Position numbers and translations under genes: made by a program
Notes under the pieces: model-generated
Seen by the model: only the letters and a program-made list of their open reading frames with translations
Databases searched by the model: none
What the model was told of the DNA's origin: nothing
Shown here: piece after piece, positions 22,314-23,021 of the stretch
Layout: each line of letters opens with the position of its first letter
Position numbering within the stretch: the first letter of the stretch is position 1
Source: Terriglobia bacterium
GTDB taxonomy: Bacteria > Acidobacteriota > Terriglobia > Acidiferrales > UBA7541
Length of the DNA stretch: 40,950 nucleotides
Direction: 5' to 3'
Assembly: GCA_020072805.1 (NCBI GenBank)
Contig: JAIQGC010000039.1
Location: 1 to 40,950 of the forward strand

Positions 22314-23021
22314 TCAGGGCGCGGACGCGATGGCCAATCTCTGCAAGGTTTCCGCGACGCCCTTGGAATGGAAACCGAATGGTCCGGGCTTTGACTTGTA
22401 GGCTACCCGGCCAGCGCGGTCAATCACATAGAGCCGGTCGGGCCAGCCTGCGTAGGCCCGCTCCGTGGCATTATCGAAGGTGTCGATCACGGCGGGAAAC
22501 TTAATTCCGAGTTTCACCAGGCAGATTTGACCGAGTTGGCTGCGCTCTTCGAAGCTCTTAGGCTTCGCGAACAGAACCTGGTCGTCCAAATTATCCGGGT
22601 CCTGCCAGACATCGCTGGTGTGGGCCTCCCGGATGTACACGACGTAAAAGGCTACGTGATCCTTGTACTGCTCGTAGAGCTTGTTCAAGACGGGAACCTC
22701 CCGCCGGAAGGGCGGTCAGGTGTAGCTGCCAAAGACGAGCACGACGGGTTTCTGTCCCCGCAAGGAAGACAACTGGAACTGGCTCTGGTGGTCAGGGCTC
22801 CCGAGAGAAAAATCCGGGGCCACATCGCCCACGCGCACAGGGCCTTTGCGGGCTACATTCCATAGTGACCTGAAGGGAAGCACTCCCAACGCAGGCCAGG
22901 GCACGTGCTTCATCGTCCTGGCAAAATCATCCGGCGGTTGCAGCATGGCGGCAAACAACAGGCCGCAGAGGAGCGCATACAACGCAATCACCGCGCCCAG
23001 TATTTTCAGCAGTTTCCTCAC
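22314..23021 (-). CDS. Deiodinase-family thioredoxin-fold selenoprotein (in-frame UGA = Sec102)
   Basis: One 235-residue reading frame interrupted only by TGA at 22716-22718. It starts at GTG 23021 with AGGAAG upstream and an N-terminal membrane anchor (LLKILGAVIALYALLCGLLFA), so the catalytic domain is probably extracytoplasmic. The domain reads VGDVAPDFSLGSPD, then VVLVFGSYT-U-PPFRREVPVLNKLY, then FYVVYIREAHTSDVW, and ends YVIDRAGRVAYKSKPGP. FGSxTUPPF and EAHxSDGW are the hallmarks of iodothyronine deiodinases (T4_deiodinase family), whose catalytic residue is selenocysteine at exactly this site. A bSECIS-like hairpin follows the UGA. Ordinary annotation would show two fragments (22716-23021 and 22314-22688). 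The substrate in bacteria is unknown; a thiol/peroxide reductase role is plausible. Selenocysteine machinery is not in this window. Confidence 0.85.
22689..22705 (-). promoter_or_regulatory. candidate bacterial SECIS hairpin
   Basis: Minus-strand RNA GGCGGGA-GGU-UCCCGUC: seven-bp stem (one G-U pair) with a GGU apical loop. The loop begins 18 bases after the UGA and its first base is G. These fit the bSECIS rules as I remember them: loop about 16-37 nt from the UGA, with a G in its first two positions. A competing five-bp hairpin (22701-22715) is possible. Confidence 0.6.

Follow-up and report, generated by a model that had tools for sequence, protein, structure and literature searches.

A deiodinase-like selenoprotein of the Acidobacteriota, very probably encoded across an in-frame TGA codon

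Two adjacent open reading frames on the minus strand of an acidobacterial contig raise the question of whether they represent two genes, a broken gene or a single selenoprotein gene, and of what the product of such a gene might do. The window, that is, the whole stretch of 40,950 nucleotides from a Terriglobia bacterium that was analysed, contains a first ORF at 22716-23021 (GTG start, 101 amino acids), which ends at the TGA at 22716-22718, and a second ORF at 22314-22688 (TTG start, 124 amino acids) in the identical frame. An earlier note, made from the sequence alone, had described these as two same-frame ORFs separated by a single TGA, and frame reading bore this out: the minus-strand frame 22314-23021 contains no internal stop besides TGA 22716-22718. 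The deiodinase-like selenoprotein gene, delimited by the reading frame, the Pfam PF00837 match (E 5.6e-32) and a 38-row alignment, runs from the GTG start at 23019-23021 over 235 codons to the final TGA stop at 22314-22316, and a Shine-Dalgarno-like AGGAAG (23031-23036, minus strand), found by direct sequence reading, stands 9 nt before the GTG. The read-through product of 235 residues carries U102 in FGSYT-U-PPFR and EAHTSDVW at residues 132-139, in agreement with the motifs noted earlier on either side of the TGA. The TTG start of the second ORF is codon 112, ten codons past the TGA and in a helix of the conserved domain, and thus the second ORF is no separate gene. The apparent split is very probably one intact gene, the internal stop of which is decoded as selenocysteine; such a gene is easily missed because ordinary ORF calling cuts the frame in two. 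Elsewhere in the window, the adjacent minus-strand ORFs 21783-22016 and 21457-21777, which differ in frame, may represent one frameshifted secreted protein at 21457-22016; Pfam gave no match for either half.

Membership in the deiodinase family and fold is supported by both sequence and structure. The T4_deiodinase profile (PF00837) aligned with residues 62-229 at 111.4 bits against a cut-off of 27, and the AhpC-TSA profile (45.4 bits against 26, below the deiodinase profile) and the Redoxin profile likewise exceeded their cut-offs. The NCBIfam model NF038285 (deiodinase_rel) matched residues 59-226 (E 5.4e-56) across half of the model (positions 174-340 of 347), with a score of 190.5 bits that lies below the curated membership cut-off of 250, and the ResA model gave a weak match (42.6 bits against 170). 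The top solved relatives by sequence were mouse DIO3 (4tr3, E 9.7e-22) and DIO2 (9h48, E 1.7e-17). In searches with an AlphaFold2 model (mean pLDDT 96, pTM 0.91), for which the 38-row alignment of window and locus proteins served as input, Foldseek and VIA-align also placed DIO3 first and DIO2 second (Z 22.4 and 22.2; next row 18.4), and AhpE, Bcp and 2-Cys peroxiredoxins were close structural matches, with ResA at a Z of about 18. The family assignment of the earlier note is thus upheld by an alignment far past the cut-off and by the same two best relatives in sequence and structure. Family membership alone does not establish deiodination, and several thyronine-contact residues of DIO2/3 are changed.

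The TGA at 22716-22718 (minus strand), corresponding to selenocysteine 102, falls exactly at the catalytic deiodinase position, as had been proposed: the codon within FGSxT-x-P was TGA in 48 of 48 loci checked. Among 175 aligned hits, 169 span the catalytic codon (6 rows gapped there were dropped), with 147 TGA, 15 TGC, 6 TGT and one TTC. Removal of 29 duplicates left 140, and exclusion of the TTC row (L166; a weak, misaligned hit) left 139 distinct loci, of which 118 carry TGA and 21 a Cys codon (15 TGC, 6 TGT); neither TAA nor TAG occurs at this codon in the 139 loci. True homologues thus carry a TGA or a Cys codon only, and do not end at this TGA. Since the TGA recurs in genomes at 86%, 77% and 53% identity, a sequencing error for TGC or TGT is very unlikely. 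The dN/dS against L025 was 0.15 after the TGA and 0.19 before it; values after the TGA against L054 and L055 were 0.08 and 0.06 (rough, with dS of 1.7 and 2.6), synonymous sites were saturated in the comparison with L072, and four other pairs gave 0.10, 0.11, 0.21 and, for L070/L071, 0.32. The codons past the TGA are under purifying selection. A separate deiodinase copy, L142 (G116:C59), has TGA, TAG and TAA inside its match and is probably decayed or misassembled.

The source genome (99.8% complete) encodes selA (549 bits), selB (354 bits), selD (347.5 bits) and a tRNA-Sec (selC) with the anticodon TCA, so that all four genes for which the earlier note proposed a search are present. The selD match (L018, G000:C94) contains one in-frame TGA, and SelD is therefore probably a selenoprotein itself. 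A PF00837 gene was found in 97 of 299 genomes in a sample of the class and in 28 of 396 in a phylum-wide sample. In the class sample, 85 of the 299 genomes have a TGA-type deiodinase, and selA, called at E 1e-50 or better, occurs in 83 of these 85 versus 138 of the 214 others (Fisher p 5e-11, relatedness ignored). The two exceptions without selA are 77% (G178) and 98% (G273) complete; in G273, selB adjoins the deiodinase gene on the same contig (L131 within L067).

Bacterial SECIS hairpins stand shortly after the UGA. They are described as having a G in a small apical loop (PMC1088965). Both features are found in the probable bacterial SECIS hairpin of the window gene (22689-22705, minus strand), identified by shuffles, folding energy and covariation, which has a 7-bp stem GGCGGGA/UCCCGUC and a GGU loop (22696-22698) and occupies nt 14-30 when counting starts at the U of UGA, with the loop at nt 21-23. 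Its stem strength was reached by 0 of 200 synonymous shuffles, and the 24-nt hairpin piece folds at -10.9 kcal/mol, with 2 of 200 shuffles as good. Against the main explanation, the best fold of a 79-nt piece from the UGA is no better than shuffles (z -1.0) and replaces the proposed hairpin with a 5-bp hairpin nearer the UGA (nt 4-8 with 14-18), and an Rfam search gave no match; the competing fold would presumably not persist with a ribosome at the UGA. In a scan for hairpins of at least 4 pairs with a G in the loop, at any placement in nt 13-48, 117 of 118 TGA loci scored versus 12 of 21 Cys loci, with median stem scores of 17 and 9, and a synonymous-shuffle p of 0.05 or less was obtained for 51/118 TGA and 0/21 Cys loci (medians 0.08 and 0.43). 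The codon pool was taken from the same loci, so that the shuffles resemble the real sequence and the control is read as conservative. For the window-type register, tested on 38 of 77 distinct sequences that were hand-picked to spread over groups, 79% of cells were paired and 6 of 7 pairs varied on both sides (30 cells); paired percentage, cell count and covariation score were reached by 0 of 500 shuffles and the pair count by 4 of 500. The structure slid by +1 gave 31 two-sided cells versus 30, but pairing fell to 49% from 79% and the score to 0.25 from 0.33. For a second register with a 4-nt shift, to which 27 sequences were assigned, 14 of 18 fully pairing sequences were tested; 5 of 6 pairs varied on both sides (23 cells), with 100% pairing by construction.

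An N-terminal transmembrane helix at about residues 7-25 (22947-23003, minus strand) has a window hydropathy of 2.5, with a net charge of +3 before and 0 after. Based on the basic residues before the helix, which give an N-in/C-out bias, the domain is predicted outside the cytoplasm, and the catalytic domain is probably periplasmic, in line with the anchored, outward-facing enzyme suggested earlier. When TGA members were split at 47% identity to the window protein into subfamilies A and B, a TM-like N-terminus was found in 56/58 (A) and 46/59 (B), with more positive charge before than after in 46/56 and 33/46, respectively; for Cys forms the figures are 8/21 and 2/8.

A possible mechanism was proposed on this basis. 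An intact, SelB-decoded, membrane-anchored periplasmic deiodinase-fold selenoprotein with Sec102/Cys167 chemistry is, as a whole, the explanation that we regard as likely; computation supports its recoding signal, machinery, family, fold and conservation, and we infer the location, the role of Cys167, the substrate and the reductant. SelB and tRNA-Sec would insert selenocysteine at UGA codon 102, under the direction of the hairpin 14-30 nt downstream. The 235-residue product would be anchored in the inner membrane through its N-terminal helix, with the thioredoxin-fold deiodinase domain facing the periplasm. The Sec102 selenol, backed by the Ser99/Thr101-Tyr129-Glu132-His134 network, may attack an oxidized substrate to give Se-OH or Se-halide; candidates are a hydroperoxide and an aromatic compound attacked at its iodine or bromine. 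Cys167 could then resolve the oxidized Sec102 as a selenenyl-sulfide, and a thiol donor, possibly the AhpD-like protein encoded next door in some relatives, may re-reduce it. The likely role is reductive selenol chemistry, with peroxides or halogenated aromatics as candidate substrates.

The candidate resolving residue Cys167 (22521-22523, minus strand) stands at Sec+65 in helix 157-171 of the AlphaFold2 model. Of the 59 subfamily A members, 58 cover this site and all of these have Cys there, as do 9 of 21 Cys homologues; the residue is mostly missing in subfamily B (Cys in 10/59, Phe in 41/59), which speaks against the main explanation. The distal Cys of animal deiodinases, described at 69-76 positions past Sec (PMC9141512), aligns elsewhere.

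A peroxiredoxin-like selenoperoxidase that acts on hydroperoxides and never dehalogenates, with an AhpD-like neighbour that feeds or parallels it as in AhpC/AhpD, is a serious contender, if a little short of probable; it would account for the AhpC-TSA and Redoxin scores and for the closeness in structure of AhpE, Bcp and the 2-Cys peroxiredoxins. The flanks of 62 loci with 62 different cores (the window, 60 related loci and one Mycolicibacterium plasmid) were compared. An AhpD-like (CMD family) gene lies directly upstream on the same strand in 10/62 loci (L061, L062, L065, L066, L067, L072, L210, L211, L217 and L187), some in related genomes and therefore non-independent, and about 4 kb downstream in L228 and L229. 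Of four such proteins scanned with TIGR01926 ('peroxidase-related enzyme'), L061, L066 and L072 exceeded the cut-off and L187 fell just below. Of the ten upstream genes, six read CxxU with an in-frame TGA: L217 has CPFU and the other five have CPYU. In the roughly 4 kb upstream of the deiodinase, selB was found in 7/62 loci and selA in 6/62 (Pfam-checked in L065, others by similarity), and the order selB, AhpD-Sec, deiodinase-Sec recurs in L062, L065, L066, L067 and L210, with selA before selB in four. In these five loci, the AhpD-like gene between selB and the deiodinase reads RCPYU with an in-frame TGA and is likely the second selenoprotein of the cluster. A tRNA-Sec gene lies upstream of the deiodinase in Edaphobacter lichenicola (L064), with 139 nt between its end and the adopted start codon. 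The source genome has, on another contig, an AhpD-like CPFU frame with an in-frame TGA (L238, G000:C136:16780-17244), a probable selenoprotein. As judged from sequence, the AhpD/sel context points to a redox function linked with the deiodinase-like protein.

Peroxiredoxins (AhpE, Bcp) and ResA-type thioredoxins share the overall fold (Z 16-18). Other features count against a selenoperoxidase. The peroxiredoxin motif is PxxxTxxC. It is missing here, with Leu95 and Ser99 at those positions, and the deiodinase loop and the Tyr129, Glu132 and His134 network, invariant in 118/118 TGA members, are present instead. The AhpD-like proteins look cytoplasmic, with no evident signal peptide when read by eye, which conflicts with a periplasmic partner role and weighs on the main explanation as well. 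So does the position of the window copy, whose upstream neighbours are an EamA transporter and an enolase-superfamily gene and which has neither sel nor AhpD genes nearby in the stretch examined; a conserved cluster around it was found only with the near relative G009, plus one gene family in common with L212. The neighbours scanned for subfamily B in the window's genus (pyrophosphatase, HAD-type hydrolase, SIS/CBS, DAHP synthase, CTP synthase and pseudouridine synthase) gave no functional hint.

A true deiodinase in mechanism, which would reductively dehalogenate natural aromatics that carry a halogen, is rather unlikely, even with DIO3 and DIO2 as the best matches in fold and sequence. The protein resembles animal DIO1-3 in FGSxT-U-P-[P/S]-F, EAHxSDxW, the membrane anchor and the thioredoxin fold. 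The SECIS of animal deiodinases lies in the 3' UTR, whereas the hairpin here is in the coding region. The protein further differs from them in partly changed thyronine contacts, in the second Cys on a helix at Sec+65, in a domain that would face the periplasm by the charge rule and in the loop, EAHTSDVW versus EAHPSDGW in DIO2/3. EAHTSDVW (22605-22628, minus strand) starts the deiodinase-specific loop, in which Glu132 and His134 are the counterparts of DIO3 Glu200 and His202. The DIO3 network residues Ser167, Thr169, Sec170, Tyr197, Glu200, His202 and Trp207 (PMC11592359 and the present alignment) have as counterparts Ser99, Thr101, Sec102, Tyr129, Glu132, His134 and Trp139, in that order, and Thr101, too, is invariant in the 118 TGA members. 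In favour of dehalogenation, Thr101 matches Thr125 of DIO1, reported as essential (PMC9141512), Glu132, His134 and Trp139 are kept, and Lys211-Pro212 is similar to the Lys-Ala/Pro/Ser pair that DIO1 is described as having (PMC11592359), although just 27 of the 59 subfamily A proteins have Lys211. The deiodinase proton relay is incomplete, with Pro154 in place of the solvent His (DIO3 His219, derived from DIO2 His182). DIO1 H174A, at the same place, is reported as still active and H174Q as inactive (PMC9141512), so that Pro154 does not exclude deiodinase activity. The DIO3 contacts Phe258, Glu259 and Arg275 are replaced by Pro194, Asp195 and Pro212, changes that, together with Pro154, also tell against the main explanation; of the contacts Phe258, Glu259, Arg260 and Arg275, only Arg260 is kept, as Arg196. 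The proximal Cys of deiodinases is absent, with Tyr100 there, as it is from DIO2. No halogen-related Pfam family was found among the ten window neighbours scanned.

ResA is membrane-anchored and periplasmic. The topology predicted here resembles it, and ResA is among the next structural neighbours and matches weakly by its model; a ResA/TlpA-type thiol-disulfide oxidoreductase for periplasmic disulfide or cytochrome c chemistry is nonetheless distinctly improbable, as the protein lacks CxxC or UxxC and the deiodinase profiles score far higher. The Sec is followed by PPF in 109 of 118 TGA loci, and a Cys at +3 is found in 2/118 (L193 and L194). A UxxC active site was rejected for this clade, which has UPPF. 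L193 and L194, from genomes of the same phylum, carry UPFC, the published UxxC type, and the L193 hairpin has a GGC loop. A genuine stop at codon 102, through pseudogene formation or sequencing error, or a pair of genes, as automatic ORF calling would have it, is scarcely credible and was rejected, given the TGA common to other genomes, the homologous codon restricted to TGA, TGC or TGT, a dN/dS well below 1 past the TGA, and the hairpin and Sec genes.

Bacterial deiodinase-like selenoproteins, in Sec and Cys forms and with a bacterial SECIS, were reported in 2005 (PMC1088965), and the present protein is therefore a variant rather than a new kind. It is like the Sargasso Sea/GOS proteins in PF00837, the catalytic Sec, the Cys homologues and a SECIS after the UGA, as far as these are described in PMC1088965 and PMC2398784. 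The 2008 GOS table lists a deiodinase-like family without giving a redox motif there (PMC2398784), and reviews of 2022 and 2026 give UxxC (PMC9312934, PMC13188914). In contrast to this published form, the protein here has UPPF, an N-terminal anchor and a Cys at Sec+65, and comes from Acidobacteriota. A 2006 survey gives three selenoprotein families in Acidobacteria, with no mention of deiodinase (PMC1794560). No paper on the acidobacterial form or the AhpD pairing was found in the open-licence literature, which mostly leaves out subscription journals, and no assigned function for bacterial deiodinase-like selenoproteins was found in the relevant parts of the cited papers. What appears new, going by sequence comparison, is acidobacterial clade A, with UPPF instead of UxxC, a Cys at Sec+65 and a probably periplasmic domain.

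A tree was built from Acidobacteriota, one plasmid protein and two mouse chains; tblastn against plasmids gave 4 distant records. Removal of rows with fewer than 100 residues past the catalytic position left 136, and removal of near-copies (80%) left 97. A branch (97/94) separates subfamily A from the rest of the tree. Subfamily B does not form a single group; 18 of its proteins cluster with DIO2 and DIO3 (99/88). The highest identity to an animal chain is 42% for DIO2 (L034) and 41% for DIO3 (L077 and L078). Because the animal branch is long (2.05) and chromosomal sampling covers Acidobacteriota only, the placement of animal deiodinases beside subfamily B is provisional, a lead. A separate clade (L147-L151, L154, L155, L157 and L180) consists of Cys-type deiodinase domains in long proteins, with the motif FGSY[ST]-C-PN[FL]R or LGSYT-C-PNFR; in L147, the one member scanned, TPR repeats precede the domain.

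More tentatively, the family may have diversified within the Acidobacteriota, with subfamily A as a periplasmic Sec102/Cys167 enzyme that would work with an AhpD-like CxxU selenoprotein, clustered in some genomes with selA-selB, and subfamily B as the prokaryotic group that, of those sampled, stands closest to animal deiodinases. The protein represents an abundant form in one bacterial class, with a homologue in Edaphobacter lichenicola X5P2 that adjoins tRNA-Sec, and the analysis supplies a candidate resolving residue and, for some relatives, a candidate partner encoded by a neighbouring gene. This opens a direct assay of what deiodinases did before thyroid hormone. If the tentative scheme is true, a bacterial selenoenzyme of detoxification would be the ancestor of the thyroid-hormone enzymes, or the two would go back to a common ancestor.
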